From Pelagomonas calceolata (Eukaryota; Sar; Pelagophyceae; Pelagomonadales; Pelagomonadaceae), in contig CAKKNE010000002.1 in assembly GCA_918797485.1 (NCBI GenBank), forward strand, positions 4,492,501 to 4,556,500: DNA of 64,000 nucleotides. The letters run 5' to 3'. Under the pieces are notes generated by a model. The model did not search any database. It saw only the letters and a program-made list of their open reading frames with translations, and was not told the origin of the DNA. Below are positions 4,762-64,000 of the stretch, in pieces; positions within the stretch are counted from its first letter, which is position 1, and each line of letters starts with the position of its first letter. The position numbers were made by a program, and so were the translations under genes.

Positions 4762-5640
4762 TTACGACACGACACACCCCCCCTGCTCCCCGCTCACATC
4801 CCGCCCGGCCCTCCTCGCGCGCGCCTTCGCCTTCAGTCGATCGACGACGTTCTGCTTTTCTTGCCGCACGGCGTTCATCGCCGCCGCGTCGTTCCTTTCT
4901 TCCTGGGACCGGATCTTGCGCTCGAACCATTTCGTCGTCGTCGTCTTCTCGCCGTCGCGCGTTCTGTTGGTCTGGAAGACGGGGTCCCTTTGGACGGTGT
5001 CGCCATCCCCATAATGCCAGGCGTTCCACGTGTCGCCGTCGACGCCGGAGCCCCCTCCTGGATACGCATGCGGCGCCGTCGGTGATTTCCTGATAGACGT
5101 GGGGCGCTTGGCCAGAGGCGACGTGGCGTTGCCGATCTCAGCGTCGTACCTGTGTGGAAATCAAATTTTACGGCGCGTTCGTGCTGAATCGTCGCGTCGT
5201 CCTCCACGCCATCGACGCGACGCTTGCTCGATGGCGTGGCGATGTCGGTTCCTCACCGCTCGACGGAGCCAGCACGGCCGCGTCGTCGCCGTAAAATGAC
5301 TTGGTGAAGAATTATCGGGTGCACCCGACACACTGGTTGATTTCCACACAGGGTCGTACGCGCGTCGCGCGCTGTCGTCTGTCAGCGTCGAGTGCGCATC
5401 CACGAGCCGCTGGAAGCGCGCCACGGCCGACGCGTCGCCCGGGTGCAGGTCCGGGTGGCTCTCCTTCGCGAGGCGGCGGAACGCGCCCTTGACGTCGGCC
5501 TCGGAGGCGTCGTAGGCGATCTCCAGCGTGCGGTAGTGGTCCCGTCGTCTTGCGGAGCCGCGGTAGTGGCGTCGCGCGCGCCTGCTGTTTCGTGCCGTGG
5601 AGGTGGTGCAGACTGTCAGTGCTGCAGGTGCTCTATACAT
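4762..5640 (-). CDS. J-domain (DnaJ/Hsp40) protein interrupted by an introner
   Basis: Exons 5640-5360 and 5149-4762, 222 codons, phase 2. Exon 1 has a basic N-terminal stretch and then a J domain: DHYRTLEIAYDASEADVKGA, the HPD signature in ESHPDLHPGD, and the end helix in SARRAYD. The domain's closing AYD is split by the introner and restored exactly on splicing (AYDAEIGN). The remaining 120 residues are hydrophilic, ending in a basic helical stretch and CVVS. J domains stimulate Hsp70 ATPase. The N-terminus before the J domain could be an organelle presequence. An in-frame upstream Met at 5751 is possible but lies only 11 bp from the CTAG dyad, so 5640 is preferred. Confidence 0.85.
5150..5351 (-). 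mobile_element. Introner 1 (202 bp), in the J-domain gene
   Basis: Non-autonomous DNA element with near-perfect terminal inverted repeats CTGTGTGGAAATCAA and TTGATTTCCACACAG. Flanking octamers 5142-5149 and 5352-5359 agree at 7 of 8 (gene strand GTACGACG/GTACGACC). The functional intron is 5150-5359: GT comes from the upstream duplication and CAG from the element end, and splicing restores the pre-insertion codons. Internal hairpin at 5204-5239 with 12-bp arms CCACGCCATCGA and TCGATGGCGTGG. Inserted sense to the gene, taking the CAACCAGTG end as 5'. Confidence 0.92.
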
Positions 5641-5761
5641 CCTCGGCAAGGGCGTGCGTGCCAGCTGCGATTCGTACAGTATCCAGCGATGGAGAAAGCG
5701 ACTACTAACGGGCTGGTTGGCCCAGCGAGGCGATTTTTGGTGCCCGTGCACGCGCCACCAA

Positions 5762-5788
5762 GCTAGCGGCGCGTAAAGACACTAGCAA
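5762..5788. promoter_or_regulatory. CTAG dyad, copy 2
   Basis: Half-sites GCTAGCGGC and GACACTAGC, spacer slightly longer than in other copies. It lies 122 bp upstream of the J-domain gene start. Confidence 0.55.
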
Positions 5789-5789
5789 A

Positions 5790-5882
5790 ACTAATTCGGC
5801 CACTTATACTCAGGAACCGTACGAAAGACCAGAGTCCGACCCCTCGTCGGGGCAGGTACGTGGTCAGCGCAAGGAACGGGAA
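5790..5882 (-). pseudogene. Truncated duplicate of the 3' end of the plastid membrane protein gene at 7580-8410
   Basis: This stretch matches 7558-7675, the last codons and 3' flank of the downstream gene. Shared blocks include ACTAATTCGGCCACTTATAC, CCGACCCCTCGTCGGG and a CAGGAACGGGAA-like end. The coding part corresponds to FLALTTYL...PDEGSDSG but has a deletion of about 25 bp and no upstream exon. It sits between the J-domain promoter dyad and the 3' end of the glycosyltransferase-like gene. It looks like a broken host-gene fragment left by a local duplication. Confidence 0.65.
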
Positions 5883-5894
5883 CGAGCGTTGCAT

Positions 5895-7247
5895 TCAAAA
5901 GTGGAAGAAGAGCGGCCCATGGTCGTGGATCGGGACGGCGGGCGCTCGCCTGGCGAGCTCCGCGGCGAAAAAGCCGTCGGCCGCGTGGAGACGCCCCTGC
6001 GACGGCTGGGGCTTGCCATCTTCAAAGAGGCCGACGGCGAACGTCACGTTGCGCATCGCCGACGGCCGCACGAGCATGCACCCCAGGTCGATCGCCGCAA
6101 TGCGAAAGGCCACTCTCTGGAATCTTTTGAGAAGGTGGCAGAAGAAGTCCACCGCGGTCGACCCGACGTCCGGGCGCGCGTTGAACACGGCGAGCTGGTG
6201 CCGGAAGAAGTCGACGTGGTAGATGTTGTCTCCATTGGTAACATGGATGAAGTCGCAGCCGCCTCGCCGGCGCATCTCGAGGAGCCACAGGTCCGTCAGG
6301 ATGTAGCCAAAGACTTTGATCTTGACGCCCCAGCGTCGCCTGAAGGCCGCCTCGGCGCGCTGGTAGCGATCGTCGAAGCGCTCGTGGATCTCGAAGCTGC
6401 CCGACGCGTTCTGATCAACGCACGACGCCTCGAACGCTACGCGGCGGCGGAAGCAGGGCGACAGCGGGAGCCGCCTATCCGTGTTGGCGAGGTGCACCTC
6501 CAGGTCCACCGGCGTCCCGGCCGCGCGCGCGGCCGCCCGCATTGTCTGCAGCATCGTACCGATCACGCTCTTGTGGCCATCGTAGCTACGGACGTATGCG
6601 CAGATGCGGGTCGCGTTCTGCGCGTGCGTCGCTCCAGCCCGCGCCGCCGCCGCGTCTAAGTCCGCGGGTCGGCCGCACGCGCAATTGCCGCCGACCGGCC
6701 GGCACGTCACGCCGCGGGATCCTTGCCGTCCTACGTTCAGCCTGTCGTCGCACCCGCCGACGTGATGGTCCGTGGGACACGCCACCTGTCCGTACTTGGC
6801 CTTCTCGGCGGCGGAGATATTCACGCAGCCGAAGCTGCGGCCCTCCCCTCGGCCGTGGTCGCGGAAGTGGTCGAGGAGCGCGCCGACGTTGCAGCCCTTC
6901 TTGCAATAGTGATACTCGAGGTCCGCGTAGTTCTTCGCGTAGCACGTGGCGTTCTCGGCGCGCGCTTGCTCCGCGGCCGCGTGCTTGCTCTTTTTACGGA
7001 GCTTCCACTCGCGCCGGTGTTGGGCGACGCGTTCTTTGTGGGTTGTGTGATTGACGGCGTGCGTGTGATTGACTCCGTCCAAGCGCCTTCGACGGGCGTC
7101 ATCTCGTCGCCGGAGTCTCGTCACCTCCGATATATTCACCTGAAACGAGCCAAGTCCCGCGCGGCAGGCCGGCGGTGACGCGGCGACGACGGCCGCGACT
7201 GCGGCGAGGGCGAGGCTGGCGCGCCACATGTGGGCTTGCGAGAGCAA
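5895..7247 (-). CDS. Secreted/Golgi glycosyltransferase-like protein
   Basis: 450 residues. An N-terminal signal sequence (MWRASLALAAVAAVVA, allowing a start at 7229) is followed by a basic linker with N-glycosylation sequons (NHT, NHT, NAT, NIS) and a Cys-rich block (CYAKNYADLEYHYCKKGCN). The C-terminal half resembles a nucleotide-sugar glycosyltransferase fold: ICAYVRSYDGHKSVIGTM, then FIHVTNGDNIYHVDFFRHQL, where GDN is in the place of a metal-binding DxD, and later AAIDLGCMLVRPSAM and GFFAAELARR. No specific GT family could be named. The secretory pathway is inferred from signal and sequons. Ends just short of the duplicated gene fragment. Confidence 0.6.
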   Translation of the reverse strand: MLSQAHMWRASLALAAVAAVVAASPPACRAGLGSFQVNISEVTRLRRRDDARRRRLDGVNHTHAVNHTTHKERVAQHRREWKLRKKSKHAAAEQARAENATCYAKNYADLEYHYCKKGCNVGALLDHFRDHGRGEGRSFGCVNISAAEKAKYGQVACPTDHHVGGCDDRLNVGRQGSRGVTCRPVGGNCACGRPADLDAAAARAGATHAQNATRICAYVRSYDGHKSVIGTMLQTMRAAARAAGTPVDLEVHLANTDRRLPLSPCFRRRVAFEASCVDQNASGSFEIHERFDDRYQRAEAAFRRRWGVKIKVFGYILTDLWLLEMRRRGGCDFIHVTNGDNIYHVDFFRHQLAVFNARPDVGSTAVDFFCHLLKRFQRVAFRIAAIDLGCMLVRPSAMRNVTFAVGLFEDGKPQPSQGRLHAADGFFAAELARRAPAVPIHDHGPLFFHF

Positions 7248-7384
7248 GTTTCAACTCAAGATTTACAACTGAGCCCTTGCACGCGGTCTTGTCTCAAAAT
7301 GGATGGAGTAGAAGTATTTCCGCCCGCTGGCGGTTGCGACAACGAGGGACTGGGGACCAGGGCTCGCGAGACCGTAAATTGTTA

Positions 7385-7406
7385 GCTAGAGTGCTAAGAC
7401 ACTAGC
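7385..7406. promoter_or_regulatory. CTAG dyad, copy 3
   Basis: GCTAGAGTG and GACACTAGC half-sites, shorter spacer, 138 bp upstream of the glycosyltransferase-like gene start. Confidence 0.5.
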
Positions 7407-7579
7407 CAGGCCGGGAGGGTACGGGGAACCCTGCGACGTAACTAGCCTCAGCCTCGGCCAGAGGACGCTGTTATGAAAGAAGCGGCACGCGCCCGCCGCC
7501 GATGAATCGGCGACGCGCGGTGTTAACCCCACTAGTCCTAGCACCGTAAACATGGATACTAATTCGGCCACTTATACGA

Positions 7580-8410
7580 CTAGGACCCATATGATAGCCC
7601 GGAATCCGACCCCTCGTCGGGCTTCGCCGTGAACGCCTTCCACCCCAAATACGTCGTCAGCGCCAGGAACGGGAAGGCGCCGCAGAAGATGAGCGGCTCG
7701 ACGGGGTCGCCGACGACGCCGTGCCACGCCAATTTGCACCACCGCAACACCATCTGGATGTAATTTGGATAAAAATTCAAATGAGCGTTGTAGAAGGACA
7801 CCATCAGCACCATCGTCGATGTTAACAGACTGGCAGCGAATCTGTTCATCTTCCGCGTACTTTCACCTTCTTCCGGCTGCGGGATCGCGTATTTGAGAGC
7901 TACGGCCCCCAGCCACGACAGCAGCCCGTTCAGGAAGGACAGGCGACAGGTCAAATATTCGAACTCGTGGTTCGCCTGCAAGAACCCCATAGCAGTATCT
8001 CGCCCTACTAACGTTTTGACGGCGTGGGCCGTGCCCTCGCCTGAACTCAGTAACATGGTACCTGTCACCGTGGAGACAAATACACAAAGCACCTCGCAGG
8101 CGAAACTGCCCACTAATAGGACTTTGATCATCTTCTTCGCCTGGCGGACCCACTTGTGGTCGGCTTCGCGCGTGACCAGCGATTCGTCGTCCTTGTACTC
8201 CTGGGACGTGGCCATGACCGCGCCGGCCACGAGGGCCGCCGGCGCGCCGAGGTTGCAGGTCCAGTCGAAGGCCCCGGTCGCGACCTCGAAGACGTCCGCG
8301 GCGCTCGCCTTCACGGGCGCATGGCGCGGCGTTCGCTTGTGTTGTAGCGTGAGCCGCGGCCCCGTGAAGGCCTGGGTGGCTGCAGCTATCAATGCGGTGC
8401 GCACGAGCAT
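7580..8410 (-). CDS. Plastid-targeted multi-pass membrane protein of unknown function
   Basis: 276 residues. The N-terminus reads MLVRTALIAAATQAFTGP: a short hydrophobic signal, then Ala-Phe-Thr-Gly-Pro, which fits the stramenopile bipartite plastid signal in which Phe follows the signal cleavage site. About five hydrophobic segments follow, including KVLLVGSFACEVLCVFVS, FLNGLLSWLGAVALKY, SLLTSTMVLMVSFYNAHL and a segment near the C-terminus. The last part is acidic and Ser-rich (PDEGSDSGLSYGS). No enzyme motif seen and the family is not recognised. Start chosen at the Met that exposes the plastid signal; upstream in-frame Mets give an implausible leader. A broken copy of its 3' end lies at 5790-5882. 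Confidence 0.7.
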   Translation of the reverse strand: MLVRTALIAAATQAFTGPRLTLQHKRTPRHAPVKASAADVFEVATGAFDWTCNLGAPAALVAGAVMATSQEYKDDESLVTREADHKWVRQAKKMIKVLLVGSFACEVLCVFVSTVTGTMLLSSGEGTAHAVKTLVGRDTAMGFLQANHEFEYLTCRLSFLNGLLSWLGAVALKYAIPQPEEGESTRKMNRFAASLLTSTMVLMVSFYNAHLNFYPNYIQMVLRWCKLAWHGVVGDPVEPLIFCGAFPFLALTTYLGWKAFTAKPDEGSDSGLSYGS

Positions 8411-8805
8411 GGTTTTGCAGCCACTGCCTCCCTGGCTCCAATAGACAAGCTCGTACGACTGGCGGCTGGGGTTTCTCTTGCCGGATGCCTGCTCAGCTAT
8501 AATTGGGGTACGCTCGCAGCCTCCCGCTGACCTCCTTCGCGCGCAGCGATGCTGCCAATGTGCTATCAGCTCTGAGAGCAAATGCAAACCTTGATGCGAG
8601 GAGGCCCGCCTGGCAGCAAGTTCACGGCTCGTCGTATGGCAGTCGACCCCTCCAGGGCTGCTGGATAGGTAACTCGTGAGGCGTTCTAGCGGTCTGTAAG
8701 ACACTAGCAACAGCAAGCCTATGCCTTTGTGCAAAGAGCTATCGCATTGATGCACCAGACGCAGCTTTGGCACGAGCATCGTGACCTTTAGGCAACACAG
8801 CAGCT
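8411..8805. other. Divergent promoter spacer
   Basis: 395 bp between two divergently transcribed genes. Apart from the CTAG dyad at 8686-8710, no element was recognised. Confidence 0.45.
8686..8710. promoter_or_regulatory. CTAG dyad, copy 4
   Basis: CTAGCGGTC and GACACTAGC half-sites. Lies between divergent genes, 276 bp from the left start and 96 bp from the right start. Confidence 0.6.
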
Positions 8806-9812
8806 GTGCTCCGATCAATGTGGCGCGCGAGGCATGTGGCGTCATGTGCCGCTGCTGCCTGGATCGGCAGCCGCGCGTCCGCGACGCCAGGACACCCTGC
8901 ACTCAAGCATGGCACTCCAATAAGCCATCGCACGCGCTACGACGAAAACTACGTGGTGCATTTTGACCAGCGAGCGCGAGACCCTTTGTGGGTGGTCGAG
9001 CGGCTGACGAAGCAGCGGCTCGACGCCGAGGCCGAGCACCCGCCAGGCCGCCGTGACGCGCGCTATCTGGAGGCCGCAGACGTGCCTGCCCGCCTGCGGT
9101 CGCGGCTCGCGCACTACAAGCACAGCGGATTCGATCGAGGCCACCTCGCGCCGGCGGCGGATCACCGCGGCTCCAGAGACGCTGTGCAGTGCCGAGGCGG
9201 CGTCCTCGATTGCGTCGATGGCGTCCCGGAGAAGCGTCAACCTCCACGCCATCGAGCAATGTCTCGCGCAGGTCGACGTTCTACCTCGACAACATGGCGC
9301 CGCAGGATAGTCTTCTCAACCGAGGACCCTGGCTGAAGCTTGAGGAGCTCTGCCGGAGCGTCGCTCAAGTCGCCGACGAGGTCTACGTCGTTTCAGGGCC
9401 GCTATTTCTGCCCGAACGAGAAAAGGACGGTCTGCGCATGCGGCATCGTGTGCTCGGCAGCCCGCCGAGCGTGACCTGGGTCCCGTCGCATTTTTTCAAG
9501 GTGGTGCTCGCCGAGCGAGGTGGCGTTTCGTACATCGGCTGCTTCGTTTTACCGAACGGGAAGTGCGACGACGACCTCTCAAGATGGCTCGTACCACTGG
9601 AGAACTTGGAAGCCGCCGCAGGACTGATTCCGTTCCCCGACGCGCTCACCGACGAAGCCGCGCGCGACGCCCTCGCCGCGGCGGAGGCGCACTGGTGCCC
9701 GCGCGGCGCCGGCGTCAATGCCGGCGTCGCGCGCGAACGGGCCGACATTCGCCATCTCTGCGACCTCCTGCCCGCAAACGCGCTCGCCGCGCGGAAGGCG
9801 CTCCCGCCGTAG
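8806..9812 (+). CDS. DNA/RNA non-specific endonuclease, EXOG/NUC1 type
   Basis: Exons 8806-9188 and 9272-9812, 307 codons, phase 2. A hydrophobic/basic N-terminus (MLRSMWRARHVASCAAAAW) fits a mitochondrial or membrane leader. The beta-beta-alpha-metal nuclease signature DRGHLAPAADH lies at 110-120, with catalytic His113. The exon join gives AVQSTFYLDNMAPQD, the conserved second motif with the Mg-binding Asn. Between them these make a standard EXOG/EndoG core that degrades DNA and RNA. The motif is complete only when the 83-nt intron is removed, which supports the splice. Dyad copy 4 lies 96 bp upstream. Confidence 0.85.
9189..9271 (+). other. Intron, 83 nt, keeps the introner hairpin
   Basis: Donor GTGCCGAG, acceptor CGCAG followed by GTCGACGT, phase 2. 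Inside, TCGATGGCGT (9215-9224) and ACGCCATCGA (9246-9255) form the perfect 10-bp hairpin also found inside full introners, while the terminal repeats are no longer visible. Confidence 0.75.
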
Positions 9813-9883
9813 CGGTTGTGAATGTAAAGATACGGTTGTGTGGATGTTATGCGTCCAGGGGGAGGAGGCGACAAGGGGGTGGC

Positions 9884-15935: not shown

Positions 15936-16074
15936 CGATGCCCTGAGGCTGCCGAGCCGCTACCACGGATCAGTAGCGGTCCGGAGGAAGCAGTTAGACG
16001 CCGGGAGGCAGCCCGCCGGGCCGCGAGCGCCGCACCCAGCCCCCCTTAAGCTTGGGCCGCTTGGCAGCCTCTTT

Positions 16075-16096
16075 CTAGTGTGTTACTGCCCCTAGC
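16075..16096. promoter_or_regulatory. CTAG dyad, copy 6
   Basis: CTAGTGTGTTACTGCCCCTAGC, between divergent genes: 99 bp upstream of the quinone reductase start, 140 bp from the phosphatidyltransferase start. Confidence 0.55.
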
Positions 16097-16194
16097 AAGC
16101 TCGGCTCCCACAAAATCGCTCCGAGCGCTGCCAAAAACACAAGCGGGCCACTCAGGAATCAAGGAAGGACGCCTGTCGACGCGATCAGCCACCC

Positions 16195-17094: not shown

Positions 17095-19068
17095 TCAGTA
17101 GCCCGCGGCACAGCCGTCGCCGCGGCCGTCGCTGCCGGCCCATAGGACGCACCCGTGGCCGTCGCGCGTCCGTTTCTTCGAAGAGCCGTCTGGGCGAGCA
17201 ACGATGCACTGGCCGCGGCCGAACATCTTCCGGGCGTGGCCGGCGATGCCTCTCGCGCCAAAATAGCCCTGGTAGCCCGCCAGCTCGACGAAATCGACGG
17301 CGTCGCGCGGGAAGCCCTCCTCGAAGTGCACCACGATGGAGCCGCGATCCGCCTGCAGCATGTCCGGCCGCTTGTCCTGGAGGTCGCCCGAGGCGGGCGC
17401 GATGCAGAAGCGCGGCGCGTCGAGGGCCGCCTGCGGGTCCATGCCGCGGTCGAGGAGGTTGGAGAGGACCTGAACGTGGCCTTGCGGTTGCATGAACCCT
17501 CCCATGACCCCAAACGCCGCGTAGAACTCACCTCCACCTGTGTGGAAATCAACCAGTGCGACGGGTGCACCCGACAATTCTTCACTAAGTCATTTCTCGG
17601 CGATGACGCGGCCGTCCTGGCTCTGTCGAGCGGTGAGGAACCAGCATCACCACGCCATCGAGCAGGCGTCGCGTCGATGGCGTGCAGGTCGACGCGACGA
17701 TTCAGCACGAACGCGCCGTAAATTTGATTTCCACGCAGACCTCCACCATCCGTCACCATGCCTGGAATGATCGTATGGTACGGCCGCTTCCCGGGTCCGA
17801 TACAATTCGGATGCCCCTCTTGCAAGACAAAATTGCGTCCTCTGTTCTGGAGCGAGAAGCCGCAGCCCTCCGGCACGAGCCCGGAACCGAACGCCTCGAA
17901 GTTCGAGCAGATGAACGAGCAGGCGTTGCCGGCCGCGTCGACGCAGCACAGGTATGTTGTGTCGGTGCCTAGGTTCTCGAGCGCAGCGGACACGGCGCGC
18001 GCCTCTGAGAGATGGGCGTCGGCGCTCGCCGGCGTGCCGTCGCCGATGTCTGCGAGACCTTTCGCGAAGGCCATTCGGAGCGCTTCCACCTGGCGCAGGA
18101 CGTCCTCCGGTCGCCCGCTCGACGGTGGTAGCTGCTCCAACGTCGCGAGTGCCATCAGCGCCACGAGGCCTGACCCATTCGGAGGGAGTTCGTGGACCGT
18201 CTTTCCACCTGTGCGGGGACGGGCAGTGAACCCACACGCCATCGCTGTGAAGCTTGAAGAAGGACACCGGACGCGGACGGAACGTCGTCGACAGCGGCTC
18301 GACTCGCTCCGTCGCGTGCGCCGCCAGGTCCTCGAGAGACAGGACGCCGCCCTTGGCCCGGACACACTTCACGATGGCCTCGGCGACCGGGCCCTTGTAG
18401 AAGCCCTCGGCACCTTTTGAGGCGAGCGTTCTGAGAGTCGCCGCGAGCTCAGGGTTTCTGAGCACTTCGCCGTGCCGCGGCGGCCGGCCGTCGACGAGCA
18501 ACGACGCGGCGCCCGGGTTACCTTCCAGCCCGCCCCAGCGTAGCAGCTGATGCGCGTTGTCGCTCCAGAGCTGCGCGGCGACGACGTGTATGGGTACGCC
18601 TTCTTCGCTCATCTCGATCGCCGGCGCCAGTACGTCCGCCAGCGGCAGCCGCCCGAAGTCCGAGACGCAGTCGGCCCAGCTCGCAGCGGCGCCGGGGACC
18701 GTCACGCAGTGGACGCTGTCGGCAGGCAACCGATTCGCGCCGTCGCCGGCGGCCGCCCGCGCCCGCTCGGGCGTCAGCGCTTGCGGCGCGCGACCGGAAC
18801 CGTTGAGACCGCGCACCGTCTTGGTCGCGGCGTCGTAGTACAGACAAAACGCGTCGCCGCCGAGTCCACACATGCATGCCTCCGTCACGTTTAACGCCGC
18901 GACCGCTGCGACGGCCGCGTCGGCCGCGTTGCCTCCAGCCTTCAGGATGCGCAGGCCGGCTTCGCTTGCGAGCGGTTGCGAGGTGCAGCAGACGCCATGC
19001 GTGCAGAGCATGGGTGAGCGCCGGCTGGCGAACTGCAGCGGTTCTGTGGCTTCTGCGATTGCAGCCAT
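17095..19068 (-). CDS. GGT: Gamma-glutamyltransferase (Ntn-hydrolase), three exons
   Basis: Exons 19068-18279, 18208-17747 and 17537-17095, 564 codons, phases 1 and 1. Large-subunit signatures: HGVCCTSQPLASEAGLRIL, AGGNAADAAVA, MCGLGGDAF and LNGSGRAP. The small subunit begins at the nucleophile Thr in DTTYLCCVDAAGNA, followed by NRGRNF, PYHTIIPGM and, only after introner removal, VTDGGGEFYAAFGVMGG, which is essentially invariant in the family. The enzyme transfers or hydrolyses gamma-glutamyl groups of glutathione. No signal peptide is evident, as in many bacterial-type members that are cytosolic or have short leaders. An in-frame Met at 19098 is an alternative start. Confidence 0.9.
17538..17738 (+). 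mobile_element. Introner 2 (201 bp), in the gamma-glutamyltransferase gene
   Basis: Ends CTGTGTGGAAATCAA and TTGATTTCCACGCAG. Perfect 8-bp target duplication ACCTCCAC at 17530-17537 and 17739-17746 (gene strand GTGGAGGT). Intron 17538-17746 on the minus strand, phase 1: GT from the upstream duplication, CAG from the element. Splicing restores VTDGGGEF. The element lies antisense to the gene, yet still supplies a CAG because its ends are symmetric. The usual hairpin arms are present around 17655-17690. Confidence 0.93.
18209..18278 (-). other. Intron, 70 nt
   Basis: Donor GTCCGCGT, acceptor GCACAG followed by GTGGAAAG, phase 1. Joins STTFR to GKTVHELPPNGSG, matching the family pattern STTYRG...PPNGQG. 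Contains GCGATGGCGTG, a partial core word. The octamers no longer match. Confidence 0.75.
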
Positions 19069-29276: not shown

Positions 29277-30056
29277 CTATTCCTCCTGCCGGCGGCGCTT
29301 CTGCACCAATCCAGCCAGGTTCGACTCGGAGGGAGGTCGCCGCTGGCCCGGCCGTTTTCGCGCTCTTATTAACGCGGCGAGCTGGGTCGTCTCGACGTCT
29401 TGCACGTGGCACAGCGCCCTCAACACCAGCGCCCGGACCTGTGTGGAAATCGCGTCGTCCTCCACGCCATCGACGCGACGCCTGCTCGATGGCGTGGCGA
29501 TGCCGGTTCCTCGCCGCTCGACGGAGCCAGCACGGCCGCATCATCACCGAGAAATGACTTAGTGGTTGATTTCCACACAGGCCCGGACGTGGATCTGTTC
29601 CTCGTCGTCCAACCCGCTCAACAAAAACGTGAGGCCGCGGCGCGGGTGCTCCTCCTCCTCCTGCGCGTGTATGAGGTCGCGGCGATGGCGTACGGGTGCC
29701 CCCAGACACAAGGACGCCGCGGACCGCACGAGTTCCCCGATCGTCACGCCCGCCGCGGCGCTGGCGAGCCACGACCGCGGCAGCGCCACGGGGCAGGGCG
29801 TGAGGCGCATGCTCGTCAGGCTTCGTAATGACGTCGCCCGCGAGACGCCGCGCGGCGGCTCGCCCACGAGCTTCCAGGGCTCGATCGGCGCCTGGCCCAC
29901 GATCAGCAGCCGCAGCGTCGACTGCATGGTGTGCGCACTCATGCTCTGCTCGTGCGCGCTGTCGGCGAGTTCTTCCAGCGGCGTCGAGGCGAGCGCGTAG
30001 TTGTGCGGCGGCGACGCCGGCCGCGCCGCGGGCGCTTTCTGCAGGAAGTTGCCCAT
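29277..30056 (-). CDS. Protein of unknown function interrupted by an introner
   Basis: Exons 30056-29589 and 29438-29277, 209 codons, phase 0. Starts MGNFLQKAPAARP; Gly2 with Lys7 is compatible with N-myristoylation, favouring this Met over one at 30203. Contains ALASTPLEELADSAHEQSM, MQSTLRLLIVGQAPIEPWKL, and a helical AGVTIGELVRSAASLCLGAP, then EEEEHPRRGLTFLLSGLDDEEQ. The basic C-terminal tail (LIRARKRPGQRRPP...VQKRRRQEE) is reached only through the spliced form. No family recognised. Confidence 0.6.
29439..29580 (-). mobile_element. Introner 3 (142 bp, internally shortened)
   Basis: Terminal CTGTGTGGAAATC and GTTGATTTCCACACAG. Perfect target duplication GCCCGGAC at 29431-29438 and 29581-29588 (gene strand GTCCGGGC). 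Intron 29439-29588 on the minus strand, phase 0; splicing restores QIHVRALV. About 60 bp shorter than copies 1 and 2, the loss lying next to one end; the hairpin is kept. Inserted sense to the gene. Confidence 0.92.
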
Positions 30057-36797: not shown

Positions 36798-39361
36798 ATG
36801 GCAGAGGACCAAAGCCAGCCCATCCCCACGCGCGGCCGCCTCGCGCCGAGCTGGAGCGAAGCCCTCGCGAGAACGGACAAGCCCAAGCTAGGGGGAGATG
36901 CCTGCTGGGGCGGCGCCGCGACCTTAGCGGAGGAGCTCGCTCTACTCGGCGACTTCATGGCACCCAGGAGAATCGAGGACGCCGTCGAGCAAGGACTGGT
37001 GAACGCCGTCTCGGAAGCCTGCAAAACCGCTTGTAATGCGGAGGCTTTCCGGATTGGGCCGCCGACGCAGTGTCGGCTCAGTGGTGATCCAGCCTTGCTC
37101 TGCTGCGTGACGGCCAAGTCCGCGGATTCATTGGCCAAAGAGTTGGAGAAGGACCCGGCCAACGTAAAAGTCGACGCCGTCGACGACGCGAACGCGCGCT
37201 CGGCCTGCGGTGACGTGCTGTTATCCGGTGCGCGAGTAGGTTGTGTGTTGGTCGAGCGTGCGAGTGGTGCCCGCGCCCATATTGCACTCGTAGAAAACGT
37301 GGACTACGCCGAGGCTTTGCGGTTACGCAACGCCGACGCGGCGGCACGGTTCAATGCGCTAGCGCCTCGGTCTACCAGAGAGTCCGCAGTACCGAGAGTG
37401 TTCCGGACGGCGTTGTGTGTACATGGTCTGGACTCGGCGCGGGGCCTGGGCTGGTCAAAATTAGCCGAAGCCTTACATGCACTGAACGAATTGCGGCGCC
37501 ATCCGTCCAAAGCCAGACGCGGCGATGAGGCTTCCCTAGAACTCTGTGATAGACCTCTGTACGTCAACGACAAAAACGTACTTCGCGATAAGGAAGACCA
37601 CGGCCTCACAGATGATCAAGAGTTCCTCAGCTTCTCGACTGATGCGCCCCTCACCGAGGAACGCACAAGGAAGGTCCTCTCAGACTTACGAAGACGAGTC
37701 CTAGCAGCACACCGAGGCGGCGGCCTCACCTGCGAGCAGCTGCGTCGAGACTCGCGGCGGAACACGTACAAGACTGGCAGCTATTTTACTGATGACGGCG
37801 ACCTCGAAGAATTGGATCGGGATTTGGTGGAGCAGGCGAAGCTACGACTGCAGAATGGCGAGATGCTGCAGCGGCCCCTGGATCTCTTCGACAAGGCTCC
37901 TGTCCAGAAGATAACATACTCGAAGGAGACCGCGTTAGTTGTGGCAGAAGATGAAGACCAGCGGGCTACCAAAAAAAGAAGAGGTGGCGCTCTGTTGCGG
38001 CTCGTGGAGTCGGCGAGACCGCCTCCTCCACTCTTCGGGCCGCCACCGCCGCGGACGGCCGACGAGCAGCGCTGCGCCGCCGCTGTTGATTGCGCTCGGT
38101 TGGAGCCTGCGTGGAAATCAACCAGTGCGTCGGGTGCACCCGACAATTCGTCACTAAGTCATTTCTCGGCGATGGCGCGGCCGTCCTGGCTCGGTCGAGC
38201 GGTGAGGAACGAGCACCACCACGCTATGGAGCAGGCGTCGCGTCGATGGCGTGGAGGACGACGCGACGATTCGAATGCGCCGTAAAATTTTGATTTCCAC
38301 ACAGGTTGGAGCTGGAAGCCGCCGGTACGTCCAAGAACAACTCCGTCTTAGGTGCAGCCTTACCGGGAGGGGCTTTACGCGACATGCGGGCGAGGCAGCT
38401 CCTCGCCATTTTTGTCAGGTCCTGCGGAAGCGCCAATAGAGGCTCAGATGTCCTATCGGTCCAAAGCGCCTACGCCGCTTGCCTGTTACGTGTCTTGAAG
38501 CACGACGCCCCTTATCCGGAAGCCTGGTCTCCAACAGAACCACTCGGCGCGCAGGGGGCCCTGTGGCGCGCGACACGGCTCGGCGACTCGAACTTGGAGC
38601 ATAGGGAGGCGGCTCTGAGACCGGCTCCCTTGCACGGTACTGCGAGAGATTGTAAAGCTCGAGCGGACGTCGCCGACGACGCCTACGAGGCCATTGGCCA
38701 TTTGACGGCGGCATTGGGTGCTTCTCCCTCCAATGCTTCGTTACTGGCTCAAAGAGCGGCAGCTTATCTAGCTTGCGACCTGACGAACCACGCCCGCTCC
38801 GACGCCGCGAGATGCTTGGCCTTAGCACCGGCCTGGGACGGCGCGTTGAGATGTGCCGCGCAAGTCGTGCACGGGTCGCAGCCGATGCTGAGCGCCTTGC
38901 AGGACTACGCCGCTTTGGTCCGACGGCAGGCGCCGGCTCCTTCCGATGTAACGGACGCTCCACCTGTCTCGGGAGATATTGCGTCGTTGAAAAGTTACGC
39001 GGACGGGGAATTCCGAGCCAAGCGCCTCCCCGAGGCCGTGACGGCCTATACCCGATGCATCGCAAAATGTGCGGACGAGGACGACGTCGACCCACAAACG
39101 GTGGCGGCTTTGTTCTCGAACCGGGCCGCGGCCTGCATGGCTCTCAATTCATTCGGCGACGCTCTTAGGGATGGGGTTGCTGCCGCAGCTGTAAAGCCGG
39201 ACTGGGTCAAGGGACATGTGAGAGTCGCTTTAGCGCTGCGGGCCCTGAACCTACCTAGGGAAGCCATCGCGGCCTACCACAGCGCTCTCAGGTGCAAACC
39301 GGGCGACGCGGACCTCAACCTAGGCCTCTGCGACGCCGTCCAAGAAGCTAGTTCTAAATAA
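36798..39361 (+). CDS. TPR protein with a nucleotidyltransferase-like N-terminus, interrupted by an introner
   Basis: Exons 36798-38098 and 38305-39361, 785 codons, phase 2. The N-terminal third (LAEELALLGDFMAPRRIEDA... FRIGPPTQCRLSGDPALLCC) weakly recalls the fold of TRF4-type nucleotidyltransferases, but the catalytic Asp pair is not evident, so this is speculative. The middle is charged and disordered. The C-terminal part carries TPR-like helices: AYEAIGHLTAALGASPSNAS, then SYADGEFRAKRLPEAVTAYT, SNRAAACMALNSFGDALRD and VRVALALRALNLPREAIAAY, as in co-chaperone adaptors. Both halves read continuously only when the introner is removed (DCARLELEAAG). Its stop overlaps the 3' end of the next gene by 8 bp. 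Confidence 0.75.
38107..38304 (+). mobile_element. Introner 4 (198 bp), in the TPR protein gene
   Basis: Ends CTGCGTGGAAATCAACC and TTGATTTCCACACAG. Perfect target duplication GTTGGAGC at 38099-38106 and 38305-38312. Intron 38099-38304, phase 2. Sense to the gene. Compared with copy 2 it is nearly the same sequence along its whole length, so both are young. Confidence 0.93.
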
Positions 39362-55878: not shown

Positions 55879-56002
55879 GACCATCTTTTGCCCTCAAAGG
55901 GCGTTGGTTAATTCATATTTTGAGTGCATTTTTGCGCGTTGCTAGAATTACAGGCACAGGTGCTTATGCTCACAGTGTGCAGCGAATGGTGCAGCTGGCC
56001 CG

Positions 56003-57575: not shown

Positions 57576-58805
57576 ATGCAGCAAGTTGCGTGGCTCCTCG
57601 CAACGTATATTGCGTGTACGAGCGCCCTGCTCCCTACGGCTGGACTCGTAGCCACCACGCCGGCAGCCAGAGGCGCCACGACCAGACTCGCAGCCACGAC
57701 GCCGTCGCTCGGTCTCTACGGCGACTGGGAGCCGAGTGCGGGCGGCAGCTACGTCCTCGAGGCGGCGGACGGCCCCGAGGCCGCGAAGGGCGTCGTGCAC
57801 TTTTTGGGAGGCGCGTTCGTCGGCGCGGGGAGCCAGCTCACGTACCGCTACCTGCTCGAGCGCTTCGCCCAGGCGAACTATGCGGTGATCGCGACGCCGT
57901 TCCGGCTGTCCTTCGACTACCAGTCGGTCTGCGACGCCGTCGAGGCGTCGTACGACGCGGCGCGCGCCGAGGCACAAGAAAGGGGCTACGGCAGCGACCT
58001 CGAGGTCGTCGGCGTCGGCCACTCCTGCGGCGCCCTGCTCCAGGCGCTCATCGCGACGCGGCGGCCGAACGAGCGGCGGCGGCTCGCGCTCCTGTCGTAC
58101 AACAACAAGCGCGCCGCGGAGGCGATCCCGCTCTTCGAGTCGGTCGTGGCGCCCATCGCCGTCGAGGCCGTCGCGGAGTCGCTCCCGACGACGCCCTTCG
58201 CGCGGCAAGCCTTATCGCTGCTGCGGAACGCCGGCGAGGAGTTGTTGGATGCAGCCACCGACACGGACAGCCAGAACCCCTTCATGCGGCTGCGCGCCGC
58301 GGCGCCGGCGAACGTGCGCGCGCTCGGCGACGCCTTCGTCGGGGAGACGTCGACGATCGCGCGCCAGGGCCTGGAGCTCGCGGACCAGCTCCCCGACCTG
58401 CTGGGCGAGATCGCGGGCGGCGCGCGCGAGTTCGAGCCCGAGCCGCGCGAGATGCGCGAGCTCCTGCGGCTCTCGTTCCGGGCAGAAGACGTGCTCGTGG
58501 TGCAGTTCGACGACGACCAGCTAGATGAGTCGGACGAACTCTACAGCGTGCTGCGGGACTCGGTCGCGCGGCGCCAGGCCGAGGGCGAGGTCGAGGGCGC
58601 GGCGCCGGCCGTGCGTCTTGCCAGATTGGGCGGCACGCACGTCACGCCGCTGACGCAGGACATCTTCCTGCCGGCCGAGAAGGTGTCGGAGTACGCGTCG
58701 GCCGCGGCGAACGTGTCGCCCGTCATCGAGGCGCCGCGGCGGTCGTTCCTCCGCGACGTCGACGCGACGTGGGGCGAGCTCGAGGCGTGGCTCGCGCCGA
58801 GGTAA
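57576..58805 (+). CDS. DUF1350 alpha/beta-hydrolase-like protein, probably plastid
   Basis: 409 residues. Short hydrophobic signal (WLLATYIACTSALLPT) followed by a Thr/Ala/Arg-rich stretch, compatible with a heterokont plastid leader. Then VVHFLGGAFVGAGSQLTYRY and LERFAQANYAVIATPFRLSF, the DUF1350 core, and VVGVGHSCGALLQALIA with the nucleophile elbow GHSCG. The family is found in cyanobacteria and plastid-bearing eukaryotes; function unknown. The C-terminal helical part (LRDVDATWGELEAWLAPR) is typical. Start at the Met that exposes the signal. Confidence 0.85.
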   Translation: MQQVAWLLATYIACTSALLPTAGLVATTPAARGATTRLAATTPSLGLYGDWEPSAGGSYVLEAADGPEAAKGVVHFLGGAFVGAGSQLTYRYLLERFAQANYAVIATPFRLSFDYQSVCDAVEASYDAARAEAQERGYGSDLEVVGVGHSCGALLQALIATRRPNERRRLALLSYNNKRAAEAIPLFESVVAPIAVEAVAESLPTTPFARQALSLLRNAGEELLDAATDTDSQNPFMRLRAAAPANVRALGDAFVGETSTIARQGLELADQLPDLLGEIAGGAREFEPEPREMRELLRLSFRAEDVLVVQFDDDQLDESDELYSVLRDSVARRQAEGEVEGAAPAVRLARLGGTHVTPLTQDIFLPAEKVSEYASAAANVSPVIEAPRRSFLRDVDATWGELEAWLAPR

Positions 58806-58908
58806 GGTGTACTACATGTCGATAGTTGTTAAGCACACACTGATACATGCGATCGATGGAGATAAGACTTGTTGCGATGTCGATGTTCGATGTTCGAAAT
58901 ATGAGGCC

Positions 58909-59295
58909 TCAGGCCTCGCGCACGTGGAATTGCAGCTCGTCGCCGACGCGCGCCGCGTCGACCGAGAGGCCCGCCATGTAGTCGTGGCCGGGGCTGAACG
59001 CGTGCGGGCCGTAGCGTATCACGTCGCCGGTCCGCGAGACGAGGTCGCGAATGGGACGCACCTCGCCTCGCAGGCCTACGAGTAGTTCGCGGTCGAGCTG
59101 CGCCCGCTCGGCCGGCGTCGCCGCGTGCCGCGCGTCGTCGATGGCCGAGAGCGGCGGCTTCCCGTTCAGCCCGGTAATGACGGCGCCGCCGCGCGCGACG
59201 GCCGTGACCCGGGCGGGCTCGCCGACCGGACGCGTGAGAGCCACCACGGCGCCCATGACGCATGCGCTGCGCAGCACCACATGCAGGGCCCGCAT
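58909..59295 (-). CDS. Small signal-peptide protein, weakly PDZ-like
   Basis: 128 residues. Signal-like start LHVVLRSACVMGAVVAL, then ARVTAVARGGAVITGLNGKP and a C-terminal RVGDELQFHVREA. GGAVITGLNGKPP resembles the carboxylate-binding loop of a PDZ domain and the last strand fits too, but the intervening stretch is longer than usual. No protease domain precedes it. Low-confidence family hint; it could also be a stand-alone chaperone-like domain. Confidence 0.5.
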   Translation of the reverse strand: MRALHVVLRSACVMGAVVALTRPVGEPARVTAVARGGAVITGLNGKPPLSAIDDARHAATPAERAQLDRELLVGLRGEVRPIRDLVSRTGDVIRYGPHAFSPGHDYMAGLSVDAARVGDELQFHVREA

Positions 59296-59707
59296 GGTCT
59301 CCTCCTTGCCCAGCTCGTTTCAGATGTAAAGATGTGTTACCATGCAATATGTACCCTACGCACCTTGTTATATTGATTCCGCACTGCACTCCTGCTTTTA
59401 TTATAGCTGCTCTCGCTTGCGTTGCCGCAATAGCTCTGACCTTCAGCTGCAAAAACTTGACGTGTCTAGAGACTATACAGGCCGCTAGCTAAAGCCGGTT
59501 GCCATATTGCAGCCGGCACATAACGCGCCGGCCGCGCTGGTCATTGCGAGCGGGTTACGGCCCTCTACCAGTAAGTAGCCAGCGGCCTCGTGGAAATTTG
59601 CGGGCGTCGTCGTTCCGTCGGACACGAACGGTCCCAAAAAACCGACGACCCGTCAGAGCAAAACAGCCGTCGCGCGGACGCGTACGGCACACGGGCACCC
59701 AGTAACA
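59296..59707. other. Divergent promoter spacer
   Basis: 412 bp, with the dyad at 59466-59489. The segment 59330-59420 is AT-richer than the surroundings. Confidence 0.45.
59466..59489. promoter_or_regulatory. CTAG dyad, copy 12
   Basis: CTAGAGACT and GCCGCTAGC half-sites, 219 bp upstream of the UBX gene start and 171 bp from the small protein start. The left half-site is the most diverged of the set. Confidence 0.5.
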
Positions 59708-60410
59708 ATGGCCAAGACGCGCAAAGGCAAGGGCAAGGGCGGCGGCCGGAAGCGGAAGCCCTGCGAGCTCGGCGACCTCTGCCCGTACAAGCACGAGGGC
59801 CAGCATAGGGGGGAATACTGCCACCCGGGCGATCCCGACCATCCCGACACGGTCAAGCCCGCCGCGAAGAAGCCCGCGGGCCGCGGCCGTAGATTAGGGG
59901 GCACCACCGCGGGCGGTGGAGGCCGGACGCTCGGCCGCGGCGGCCCGGCGCCGGCCCCGAAGCCGGCCAAGAAGCCCGCGGCCCGCAAGGCCCCCGCGGC
60001 AAAGAAGCCGGCCGCCAAGAAGCGCCGCCGGTCGTCGGACGTCATCGACCTCGCGGCGTCCTCGGGCGACGAGGCGCCGCCGCCGCGCCGGTCGCCGCGC
60101 CGCGCGGGCGCCCCCGCGCCGGCCATCGACCTCGCGGCCTCGTCCGACGACGAACCCGCGCCGGCGCCCGCGCCCCGGCCGAAGCGGCGCAAGCGCGACG
60201 TCCTCTCAGATTCGTCGGACGACGAGGCCCCGCCGCCGCGGCCGCCGCCGCCGCGCAAGAAGGCCCCCAAGGCGGCGCCCATCGACGTCGACGCCGAGGC
60301 GCCGATCGACGTGGACGTCGACGACGACGAGCCCGCGCCGACGCCGCCGTCGCCGCGCGCGCCGCCCGAGACGCCCATCGACGTCGACGCGCTCGACTCG
60401 GACGACGGCG

Positions 60411-60441
<31 letters not shown>

Positions 60442-61114
60442 GCGGCGCCCGCGCGTCGACGACGACCTGCGCCTCGCGCTCGCGCTGTCGCGCGGCGAGC
60501 GCCCCGGGGGCGGCGCGCCGTTCGGCGGCGGCGGAGAGGCGCGGCCGGAGCGCTACGCGCCCTTCGGCGGCGACGCGGAGCTGCGCCGAGCCCTCGCCGA
60601 GTCGCGGCGGCGGCGCCGCGAGGCCGAGGAGCTCGAGCGCGCCCGGGCGCGGAGCCGCGCGACCGAGGCGCGCGCGGTCGTCGACGAGACCGAGGACGCC
60701 TACGCCGCCTCGCTGCGCGAGGACCAGGCCAAGGACCGCCGGCGCCGCGAGGCGGCCGCGGCGCAGGCGGCCGTCGACGCGGCCAAGGCCGCCGAGAAAC
60801 AGAGAGAGGAGGCCCTGGTGGAGCGCCGCGCGGCCGCCAAGGCGCGCGTCGATTCCACAGAGGAGGCGGCGGGCCCGGCGGCGAAGCGCGTGCGCGTGCG
60901 GCTGCCGGCGGGGCCGCCCCTCGCGCGGGCCTTCCGCGAGGGCGACGCCATCTCAGTCGTCCGCGACTTCGTCGACGCGTCGGGCCGCGCGCCCCGGAAC
61001 TTCGCGCTGGTTTATGCTGGCCCGCCGAAGCGGACCCTCGGCGACGACGACGCGCCGCTCTCCTCGCTGGGCCCGGGGCCCGTGGCGCTGATGGTCGCGG
61101 ACCTCGACGCCTAG
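59708..61114 (+). CDS. PBZ + SIM-like + UIM-like + UBX protein (putative p97 adaptor)
   Basis: 468 residues. N-terminal zinc finger of PBZ type: KPCELGDLCPYKHEGQ then HRGEYCHPGD (Cys19, Cys25, His33, His39); one residue longer between Cys25 and His33 than the classical finger, so PBZ-like. Then DVIDLAASSGDE and AIDLAASSDDE, hydrophobic-plus-acidic stretches fitting SUMO-interacting motifs, and two UIM-like helices (DLRLALALSRGE, ELRRALAESRRR). After a charged coil (AYAASLREDQAKDRRRREAA, as in FAF1/FAF2) the last about 75 residues form a UBX domain: VRVRLPAGPPLARAFREGDA ... PRNFALVYAGPPKRTL. UBX binds Cdc48/p97. The set suggests an adaptor that could read PAR, SUMO and ubiquitin; each binding activity is inferred. 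Confidence 0.75.
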
Positions 61115-61165
61115 CTGTACATCTATCCCCCCCCCACGTATAACAAGATGTCTTAACACACCACA

Positions 61166-62394
61166 TCACGGCTGCTCGAAGACGCGCCACGGCTCCTCGA
61201 CGTCGTCGAGGTCGTCGTCCGCGTCGCCGAAGGAGAGCGCGTTCCGGGCCGCGCGCCGCCGCTCCGCCGCCCAGCGCCCTATTTTCAACGGCCTGAGCCA
61301 GGGCGGCGGGGCGCCGACGCAGAGGTTGAACTGGACGCACAGCTTGACCGGGAACCAGATGACGTAGGACCAGAGGACGCCCGCCGCCCACCAGGCCACG
61401 ACCTGCGCGGACGTCGCATTTCGTTAACCCAACGCACTGCCTGCTTTCCACGCAGGGCCGCGACGGGCGCGTCGCTATCGGACCCGTCGAGACTCATCGC
61501 CTCCAGGACGAGGAAGCCGCACGCGAGGAGCACGAGGGGCAGCACGACGGCGTGGCCGAGCGCCTCGAGGGTCTTCTGCGTGCATCTGAAAACCGTTTCC
61601 CGCTTGCGGCCCCGCCGCTCGAAGCGCGCGCACGGACACGCCAACAAAAACCACAGGAGCTCCGCCAGAATTAGGAGAGGCACGGAGATGTAGGCGACCG
61701 TTATTTGCGCGTTGTGCGCGTAGTTGTTTAGCGACGTCCAGGGCCGCTCGGCGCGCGACGCGGCACCCGCCGCCCAGATCGCGTAGGCCTGCTGGACGAG
61801 TTCCGCCGCGAGGGCCTCGCTTCTCCCATAAGGATGGGCCGGGTCCCGTAAGCAAAAGAGGGCCGGGTGGTTGTTCCTCGCGTAGAACCAAAAGTCCTCG
61901 AGGTAGCCGCGAGGGAAGGGCGAAAACCACTTGAGCAGCGACGGCGTCGTCTGGACGTCATCCAACCCTTTACCCCAGTAGCACCGGCCCTTCACGAGGC
62001 CCATCTCCCGCAGGTGCCTTACTCGTTCAACCGCCATGGCCTGGACGAAGCGCTTCCAGCCCCGCCGCGAGACGAAGGGGCCGCTCGAATCGTCGATCTC
62101 CTGCAGCGCGCGCCCGACGCCTCTCCGGTCTCGCAACAGCCCCTTCAGAATCGCGTTGCCCGTCTCGCGCACGTAGTGCACGACCGCGTCGGACCGGACG
62201 CCCTGCCGCAGCTCCTCCGCGCTCAGGCGCCCGTCGCCGTTCGTATCGAGCAAGTCGAAGATGGGCTCCGCGCCGCTCACGTCGATGACGTCCGCGTTGG
62301 ACAGCGCCGCCAGCACCGCGAGCTCGTTCGGCGGGCCCAGGGCCGCCTGGCGGGCTTCACACTCGGCGTCGGAGGCATCACTGGCGCGCATCAT
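61166..62394 (-). CDS. EF-hand multi-pass membrane protein
   Basis: Exons 62394-61465 and 61402-61166, 388 codons, phase 0. An EF-hand, FDLLDTNGDGRLSAEELRQG (about 46-65), is followed by soluble helices and three membrane segments: TVAYISVPLLILAELLWFLL, ALGHAVVLPLVLLACGFLVL and, across the splice, VVAWWAAGVLWSYVIWFPV. The end is charged (DADDDLDDVEE). The third membrane segment is complete only when the relic introner is spliced out. Possibly a Ca2+-regulated channel or transporter subunit; family not recognised. Start at MMRASDAS; an upstream Met at 62532 lies almost at the dyad. Confidence 0.65.
61403..61464 (-). mobile_element. Relic introner intron, 62 nt
   Basis: One end keeps the family terminus (CTGCGTGGAAAG on the gene strand), the other has decayed to CGTCCGCGCAG. 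Donor octamer GTCGCGGC and post-acceptor octamer GTCGTGGC differ at one position. Phase 0. Splicing joins SDSDAP to VVAWWAAG. One extra base lies between the left terminus and the duplication. This is the smallest recognisable copy and shows how introners shrink to short ordinary introns. Confidence 0.8.
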
Positions 62395-62964
62395 TGTTTT
62401 ATGGGGCGGTGGAGCGGTGGGCGGCGCGCCGTGGGGGCGGGCTGCGCCGCCGGGCTCTTCCTCCGCCTCGGGCCACGTCGACGACGCGCAGGCGCCTGCG
62501 CTCGCCTTGTATCGAGGCCAAACACAAAACAAAACGAGGATGCTTGGCTTGCTAGTGTCTTACGGCCGCTAGCGCGGTTCGTGGGCGTGTGTTCTTTTTG
62601 AGAAGATTAATGAGAACGGTATTGGGTCTCGGGAAGCCTTGCTCACGAGATTGCGATGCGAGCATAATCCAAGCTCCAGCCTTTTTCCCGCCGCCATCCT
62701 CCACAGTTTCGCCGTCATCGTGAGCGTTGGACGCGCGACTCGCAGAGTGAGCCTCTTTTTTGATCGGCGGACGCGTAGCGAGCCGGTGGGTTAAGTTGTG
62801 ACTTAGGCCTAAGTTGGCAGCTTTTTTGCTACAACAAGCCAAATCAGAGCGCCGGGCGCGCGAGACGATAACGAGCGTCGGGAGTAACAGGTCATTCCAC
62901 CCGAAAACCGCTCGCGCGAGACGCCGTCGCCGCGCCGCGTTCGCAGACGTAACGACGAGAAAAG
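62395..62964. other. Divergent promoter spacer
   Basis: 570 bp; contains the dyad at 62549-62573. The remaining sequence shows no gene or repeat. Confidence 0.45.
62549..62573. promoter_or_regulatory. CTAG dyad, copy 13
   Basis: TTGCTAGTGTC and GCCGCTAGC half-sites, 155 bp upstream of the EF-hand membrane protein start and 392 bp from the kinase start. Nearly identical to copy 5. Confidence 0.6.
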
Positions 62965-64000
62965 ATGGGCTGCGGCGCCTCCGCGCCCATGGAGGAGAAG
63001 ACGAGCCCCCTCGACGTCGACCGCACGCCGTCCGCGCGGCTGCGGGTCGAGCGGTCGCTCTCCGCGTCCGTGCGCGGCGAGACCGCCGTGACGTTACGAG
63101 GCTACGAGTTCTCCGGAACACTCGGCTACGGCGCCTTCGCGCGCGTGCTCAAGGCGCGCCATATAGCATCAGGTGGAGACCGCGCCGTCAAGGTCATCGA
63201 CAAGGCGGTGCTACGGAAGAAGAAGACGATGAGGAGGAGCGGCTCGGCGATTGCCGTCTCGTCCGCGCTAGATAAACTCGAGGCGGAGATCACTTTGCAA
63301 AAAGACTTCGCGCACGGTCATATTATCAGGATCTTCGAGGTCGTCGAGGACCCGGTCGCGGACCGCACGTTGCTCGCTGTGTGGAAATCAAATTTACGGC
63401 GCGCTCGTCCTGAATCGCTGCGTCGACCTCCACGCCATCGACGCGACGCCTGCTCGATGGCGTGGCGATGTCGGTTCCTCACCGCTCGACAGAACCAGCG
63501 CGGCCACGCCATCGCCGTGCACCCGACACACTGGTTGATTTCCACACAGGTTGCTCGTGATGGAGCTCGCCGCCAGAGGACCGGTCATGACGTTTGACGG
63601 GAAGCTCTTCTCCTGTGCGGTGTCCGGGGAAGCCGTCGAAGCCGACCGAGCGGCGCGCATCGTGGCCGAGGTCGCGTCGGCGTTGTCCTACTTGCACATG
63701 CGGCACGTCGCGCACCGCGACCTCAAGCCGGACAACATCCTGCTGGATGCAAGGGACGCGGCGAAGCTCTGCGACTTCGGCGTGTCGCACACCTACGGCA
63801 ATTCCCTGGGCGGCCGGGACGGCGACAGCGGCGCCTTCGACCGCAACGTCTACGGCGCGGACCGGGCCAAAAGGTTGAAAGAAATAGGAAGAGCCAAGTC
63901 CGCGGCGCAAGTCGCGCAGACCGAGGGCACCTACGCGTACTGGGCGCCGGAGATGATGAACGAAGCGGCGACGTTCAACGCCTTCTCGTGCGACTGCTGG
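62965..64000 (+). CDS. CaMKK-like Ser/Thr protein kinase (3' end outside the window)
   Basis: Exons 62965-63368 and 63552 to beyond the edge; phase 2. Starts MGCGAS, compatible with N-myristoylation and palmitoylation. Kinase domain: [16 protein letters not shown] (Gly loop), [14 protein letters not shown] (VAIK Lys), [20 protein letters not shown], the hinge [13 protein letters not shown] created by splicing, [12 protein letters not shown] (catalytic loop), [10 protein letters not shown] (DFG) and [11 protein letters not shown] (activation segment). The ELxxxGPVM hinge recalls calmodulin-dependent kinase kinases and related SnRK1-activating kinases. The partial C-terminus prevents checking for a calmodulin-binding tail. 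The introner sits between the alphaC region and the hinge. Confidence 0.85.
63377..63551 (+). mobile_element. Introner 5 (175 bp), in the kinase gene
   Basis: Ends CTGTGTGGAAATCAA and GGTTGATTTCCACACAG. Perfect target duplication GTTGCTCG at 63369-63376 and 63552-63559. Intron 63369-63551, phase 2; splicing yields RTLLVMEL. Element antisense to the gene. Hairpin arms CCACGCCATCGA (63430-63441) and TCGATGGCGTGG (63454-63465). Slightly shortened near the far end compared with copies 1, 2 and 4. Confidence 0.93.

Follow-up and report, generated by a model that had tools for sequence, protein, structure and literature searches.

Elements in the window

A 64,000-nucleotide stretch of the Pelagomonas calceolata genome (GCA_918797485.1, contig CAKKNE010000002.1, positions 4,492,501 to 4,556,500; hereafter, the window) carries six recognisable copies of a short element with inverted-repeat ends. 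We read these elements, with a probability of roughly 93%, as introners: non-autonomous miniature inverted-repeat DNA transposons that would take a splice donor from the duplicated target and supply their own CAG as acceptor, a reading in which splicing is deduced from sequence. An initial annotation, made from the letters of the window, had placed five such elements, and all five are present where it put them, with the ends it described, a 15-bp inverted repeat CTGTGTGGAAATCAA...TTGATTTCCACACAG. Its count of five was too low. The overlooked copy, E6 at 3258-3319, is internally deleted and appears to be an older copy of the element. The six copies are as follows, with introns as predicted.

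E1: intron 5150-5359 (210 bases), minus strand, phase 2, in a DnaJ-domain gene; duplication copy 1 at 5352-5359, 202-bp element at 5150-5351, copy 2 at 5142-5149.
E2: intron 17538-17746 (209 bases), minus strand, phase 1, in a gamma-glutamyltranspeptidase gene; copy 1 at 17739-17746, 201-bp element at 17538-17738, copy 2 at 17530-17537.
E3: intron 29439-29588 (150 bases), minus strand, phase 0; copy 1 at 29581-29588, 142-bp element at 29439-29580, copy 2 at 29431-29438.
E4: intron 38099-38304 (206 bases), plus strand, phase 2, in a TPR-containing gene; copy 1 at 38099-38106, 198-bp element at 38107-38304, copy 2 at 38305-38312.
E5: intron 63369-63549 (181 bases), plus strand, phase 2, in a protein kinase gene; copy 1 at 63369-63376, 173-bp element at 63377-63549, copy 2 at 63550-63557.
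E6: intron 3258-3327, minus strand, phase 1; copy 1 at 3320-3327, 62-bp deleted element at 3258-3319, copy 2 at 3250-3257, with 2 mismatches between the copies.

The duplications of E2 to E5 are perfect 8-mers, and the E1 pair (GTACGACC / GTACGACG) has one mismatch; the 8-bp duplication that the annotation gave to each of its elements is thus present in all five, once imperfectly. The E6 pair reads GTGCGTGC / GTGGGTAC. On the gene strand, the duplications of E1 to E5 start with GT in five of five. Excision of copy 1 together with the element would leave junctions in phases 2, 1, 0, 2 and 2, so that all three phases are represented, as had been claimed. The same removal rebuilds the motifs AYD, VTDGGGEF and LLVMEL, each of which the annotation had quoted and each of which we recovered.

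In the spliced proteins, the Pfam domain G_glu_transpept (residues 124-299) spans the E2 junction at residue 207, and Pkinase (51-289) spans the E5 junction at residue 138. The DnaJ domain of the E1 protein (81-143) extends past the junction (140) by 3 residues only, the E4 protein has a Pfam match that does not cross its junction, and the E3 protein has no Pfam match. A codon model trained on 29 long open reading frames of the window, which asks for the coding strand of each flank and is blind to splice sites, gave strong coding calls at E1 and E5 and weak ones at E2 and E4. At E6, the spliced frame is open for 213 codons before and 216 codons after the junction, whereas the unspliced frame meets a stop after 19.

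A profile of the element matches E1 to E5 at E values of 4e-39 to 2e-71, plus weaker fragments; in the reversed window, used as a control, the same profile has a single match (E 4.3). Two weak matches in the window, at 9234-9323 (E 0.005) and 61423-61455 (E 0.11), resemble decayed pieces of the element, and the latter ends in TTTCCACGCAG. The predicted intron RNAs of E1 and E2 fold with z-scores of -5.4 and -2.8, their ends paired as expected of inverted repeats, and we do not take this folding as evidence of mechanism.

A genome-wide family and its predicted splice sites

We searched the genome, 32,445,274 bases in 8 contigs, for the exact 14-base end CTGTGTGGAAATCA, which occurs 833 times forward and 809 times in reverse (1,642 in all). 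The same end written backwards occurs 0 + 0 times on the two strands of the whole genome. Our sample of copies comprises the window, the loci of 100 listed exact-end places (all on contig 1), 24 of 40 further listed places, and two stretches fetched otherwise; it therefore comes mostly from one chromosome and is biased towards copies with one intact end or close similarity. Of its 99 distinct copies, 80 have no more than one duplication mismatch, and the other 19 have more. The 75 oriented copies are 52-206 bp long, most commonly 203 bp, and the shorter ones look like internal deletions. Being short and without coding capacity, with a 15-bp inverted repeat and an 8-bp duplication, these elements have the features of miniature inverted-repeat transposable elements. 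They also have sequence features of introners: near-identical predicted introns lie at many unrelated gene positions (75 of the 99 sampled copies were placed in coding genes), the predicted splice sites come from the element and the target duplication, and removal restores the frame. At L036, L040, L004 and L020, a single locus holds two introners, separated by short stretches of about 70 to 620 bases.

The 75 copies called by the codon model divide into 52 strong calls, with the flanks judged separately, and 23 weak ones, in which the call itself presupposes a common frame. In all 75, copy 1 of the duplication starts with GY on the coding strand (51 GT, 24 GC), and in all 75 the intron terminates in CAG. 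After removal of GY...CAG, the flanks fall into one shared frame in 52 of 52 strong calls; the annotation's claim that removal restores the frame is borne out, with E3 as the window copy whose frame has little independent support. On one strand or both, all 80 good duplications begin with GT or GC, compared with 32% of random 8-mers from the same loci. The donor rule is GY, and the GT-only result of the window is a small-sample effect. The statement that all duplications begin with GT is therefore correct for the five copies on which it was based and too narrow as a general rule. With GY in place of GT, the annotation's wider reading, donor from the duplication and CAG from the element, would account for both the window and the 99-copy sample. 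Intron phases (GT 21/4/16, GC 7/9/5) fit the codon-position background (p = 0.93 and 0.50, respectively): phases follow codon availability.

These counts bear on the simplest alternative, that the copies are plain transposon insertions that are not spliced, their host genes being broken or using other splice sites. Public proteins that read into the element (P0004-P0006, P0017, P0019, P0020 and P0022) are what such insertions would produce, and intron-blind gene calls would produce them too. However, coding calls are commoner at copies than at random window positions (62 of 80 versus 1,598 of 3,000, p = 1e-5), and a retained element would introduce a stop or frameshift in 54 of 62 copies, truncating or shifting the protein. 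Together with the exact frame of the strong calls and the conservation of donor and acceptor bases, this makes unspliced insertion hardly credible, and we rank it below every other alternative.

Orientation and decay

Element orientation could be assigned in 60 of the 75 oriented copies, 35 lying one way and 25 the other. Reverse splicing was once proposed for Micromonas introners (PMC3879977), and on that model introns would spread as RNA, entering other messages before reverse transcription. The placeable sampled copies are spliceable in the sense direction of the gene, as the model expects. A spliced-out intron, however, enters in one orientation only, and the presence of both argues against it, as do the inverted ends and 8-bp duplications, which are marks of DNA transposition. 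We consider spread by reverse splicing very improbable.

The GY signal is one-sided, since position 1 of the duplication is G in 75 of 75 copies and position 8 is C in only 26 of 75. Between them, the centre is weakly palindromic (C3 in 34, G4 in 41, C5 in 28 and G6 in 35 of 75). Across copies with up to three duplication mismatches, none of the 40 mismatches falls on donor positions 1-2 (p = 1e-5). The outermost three bases of the element are altered in 7 of 75 donor-side ends and in 0 of 75 acceptor-side ends (p = 0.013); E2 and E4 each have a T-to-C change in the donor-side end (CTGCGTGG).

GY could instead reflect a target preference of the transposase and not selection for splicing. Some hAT transposases prefer GTNNNNAC targets, and a preference of this kind would explain both the weakly palindromic centre and the occurrence of GY on a strand of every good duplication, including those of 18 uncalled copies. 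Yet a strand-blind preference should be symmetric and should fall on either gene strand, and what we find is GY on the coding strand throughout the called copies, C at position 8 in about a third of them, and donor bases that remain intact as the duplications decay. Target preference in place of selection thus seems unlikely to us, although a partial preference acting alongside selection is possible.

Several results weigh against the introner reading. All 18 uncalled copies with good duplications (of 24 uncalled among the 99) have GY on a strand, for which selection on coding genes alone is no obvious explanation; their neighbours may be short exons, they may fall in untranslated sequence, or the transposase itself may to some extent favour GY. 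The six uncalled copies with poor duplications comprise four with GT and two (L022 and L033) without GY on the best-scoring strand. When the full 14 bases of the end are compared, donor and acceptor sides show no significant difference in decay (exact on the acceptor side only in 14, on the donor side only in 9, p = 0.40). In the window, the codon model makes no coding call for the flanks of E3, and because E1 and E5 are called strongly and E2 and E4 weakly, the E3 host frame is the least supported of the five. No autonomous partner with these ends was found in whole-genome Pfam searches for hAT, MULE, IS1595 and DDE_4. Finally, a duplication shared by C1 and C5 (see below) yielded no empty site: at each of the 14 loci compared, both copies have the element ends. 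This comparison used end positions only and did not search for C5-only insertions.

GC donors

In coding flanks, GT occurs at 4.9% of positions and GC at 13.6%, and per available site GT has been kept about 5.5 to 6 times as often as GC. We scanned seven of 15 listed GC-donor proteins against Pfam, and a domain crosses the junction in five. The crossing is clear in L005 (APH/EcKL kinase fold), L025 (Pyr_redox_2) and L091 (PP2C), while in L040 (XRN_N) and L044 (hydrolase) no more than about 5 residues separate the junction from a domain end. The L098 domain ends before the junction, and the L094 protein has no Pfam match. GC-AG introns, given as 39.6% in Aureococcus and 22.2% in M. pusilla, were called an enigma in 2011 (PMC3033335). 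A link between introners and GC donors has since been drawn for Micromonas (PMC3879977, PMC4815162), and the P. calceolata family extends it to a pelagophyte.

Filled and uninterrupted sites

Using protein sequences, we compared individual sites with their public relatives. Uninterrupted proteins exist at all three sites searched (E1, E4 and L044), and at two of them (E1 and L044) other proteins read into the element. The E1 gene is uninterrupted in P0001 (93% identical, contig of 1,640 bases), P0002 (92%, contig of 2,443) and P0003 (74%, longest contig 120,308), which cross the junction as RRAYDAEIGN or RRMYDAEIGN. In P0004, P0005 and P0006, the same exon continues into element sequence and reads RRAYDPVWKS, as the window does when left unspliced. 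Exon variants absent from the window are common to P0001 and P0006, which places filled and uninterrupted forms of E1 in close relatives. The E4 gene has uninterrupted relatives in P0008 (83%, 785 amino acids, equal to the query length, contig of 5,949) and, at a greater distance, P0009; there is no filled form among the proteins listed. The GC-donor gene at L044 is uninterrupted in P0010 (93%, contig of 34,657), P0011, P0015 (74%, longest contig 90,210) and P0024, which cross the junction as FPG|LNNSSETG, and is read into an element in P0017, P0019, P0020 and P0022. A further relative, P0016, continues from the same exon into a different sequence, which again contains translated pieces resembling the introner; the site may hold a rearranged element or another one.

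Where the uninterrupted gene lies on a contig of 34 to 120 kb, the simplest explanation would be an empty genomic site; where the contig is short, a spliced transcript could account for it. Since public data include both filled and uninterrupted versions of the same site, we suggest that natural populations would allow young insertions to be followed. A bolder proposal, which we advance tentatively and think somewhat more likely to fail than to hold, is that the family is a bidirectional 3′ splice-site cassette still segregating as present or absent in ocean P. calceolata and near relatives, with its transposase coming from another source. If so, intron gain, donor choice and the cost of each would be measurable in wild populations.

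For P. calceolata RCC100, the published genome (PMC9481584) amounts to 32.4 Mb at 63.6% GC: the nucleus accounts for six contigs, the plastid genome measures 90 kb and the mitochondrial genome 39 kb, and contigs 1 and 5 share a duplication of 393 kb at their ends. In our comparison, 1,400 bases at C1:226,870 recur at C5:226,768 with 99% identity, and the first ~362 kb of C1 and C5 are a near-identical duplication. The 14 insertions found in both copies look older than the duplication, or copied between the two.

Proposed mechanism and transposase source

In the mechanism we propose, a transposase that duplicates 8 bp of target would move the elements in trans, by cut-and-paste. Each inverted-repeat end would be a whole acceptor module, comprising TTGAT (a putative branch point), TTTCC and CACAG; as both ends are the same inverted repeat, insertion in either orientation gives the gene an AG. 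Where the target 8-mer starts with GT or GC on the gene strand, copy 1 would become the 5′ splice site and copy 2 would restore the exon. Removal of GY...CAG would then excise copy 1 with the element and leave the message unchanged, as the frames, the conservation and the uninterrupted relatives suggest. Insertions in genes without GY on the sense strand would be lost by selection, and GC donors would be kept less often than GT. Thereafter, copies would decay by internal deletion and point mutation, with GY and CAG kept.

An 8-bp target duplication is common to hAT and other superfamilies. The whole-genome Pfam searches gave no match for MULE, IS1595 (Merlin-like) or DDE_4, and those for KDZ and PF21787 matched in no control genome either and are hence uninformative. 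The only hAT match of the genome is a single-copy frame of 721 codons (Pfam E 1.1e-4; L042:3880-6042, C4:4499880-4502042, minus strand). In 8.5 kb of sequence surrounding it, we found no introner end even with 3 of 14 mismatches allowed, and the frame is possibly a host gene. Immediately upstream of the frame is a decayed internal piece of the element (L042:6020-6173). We also considered the introner as a hAT derivative, which the 8-bp duplication fits, and set this aside, as the one hAT match has no matching ends in those 8.5 kb. A long end pair at C1:549,074-552,511, a candidate autonomous element, looks like two separate short copies. Three exact patterns (31, 21 and 23 bases), searched in viral contigs as possible carriers, were unmatched, a search that would miss diverged copies and perhaps excludes records near this genome.

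Relation to known introners

Huff, Zilberman and Roy reportedly found in 2016 that the introners of Aureococcus and Micromonas co-opt one splice site from the duplicated target. The mechanism is already known from other algae; the P. calceolata family of it is new. The annotation had matched the elements to the intron-generating transposons of Aureococcus, and the kind of mechanism is indeed shared, although the genome is that of P. calceolata.

Aureococcus anophagefferens introners, as described in the literature, likewise reside in a pelagophyte, form introns of ~200 bp, and have direct repeats and terminal inverted repeats of constant length (PMC9481584, PMC7789003, PMC10228655). They too carry one splice site, co-opt the other and occur in both orientations, a likeness at the level of description. 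Their splicing motifs are given as canonical (PMC7789003), whereas a third of the called donors in P. calceolata are GC. In 2022, a length peak of ~210 bp among P. calceolata introns was called characteristic of Aureococcus introners (PMC9481584).

Micromonas pusilla introners resemble the present family in their thousands of copies, decayed partial copies and many GC donors (46% in complete D-IE1). Most of the intronic ones, however, lie in one orientation to the gene, with 34 in the opposite sense, and reverse splicing was put forward for them (PMC3879977, PMC4815162), whereas in P. calceolata both orientations are common and 8-bp duplications are clear. Families in which the element brings the 3′ site and the duplication provides the 5′ site were described in a 2022 survey (PMC9860276). 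Among them, Symbiodinium microadriaticum introners share inverted repeats and this division of splice sites, but their duplications are 4 bp instead of 8 bp. In an example from an Aureococcus sp. MAG, both splice sites belong to the element and the transcript gains 12 bp (PMC9860276), whereas the P. calceolata family would add nothing. In the library searched, the genome paper (PMC9481584) was the only one to turn up for introners together with Pelagomonas. The text covered gave no account of the P. calceolata ends, duplications, donor shares or alleles, some of which may appear in Supplementary Note 3 of that paper.

How genomes gain introns has long been asked, and few of the answers are as well documented as introners. 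The present family lets the logic be followed in the letters of a genome alone, with a symmetric acceptor on the element and a donor from the target. It also displays an apparent loss of unspliceable insertions, and two splice signals that are conserved while the rest decays.

Other repeats in the window

The window, which has a GC content of 64.3%, also holds a second short repeat (type CTAGCGG..TGTAAGACACTAGCAA, ~25-31 bp), which occurs in either orientation, at 1338, 8686, 36598 and 46763 (families D16 and D19). Similar sequences lie at 16070, 45029 and 62547.

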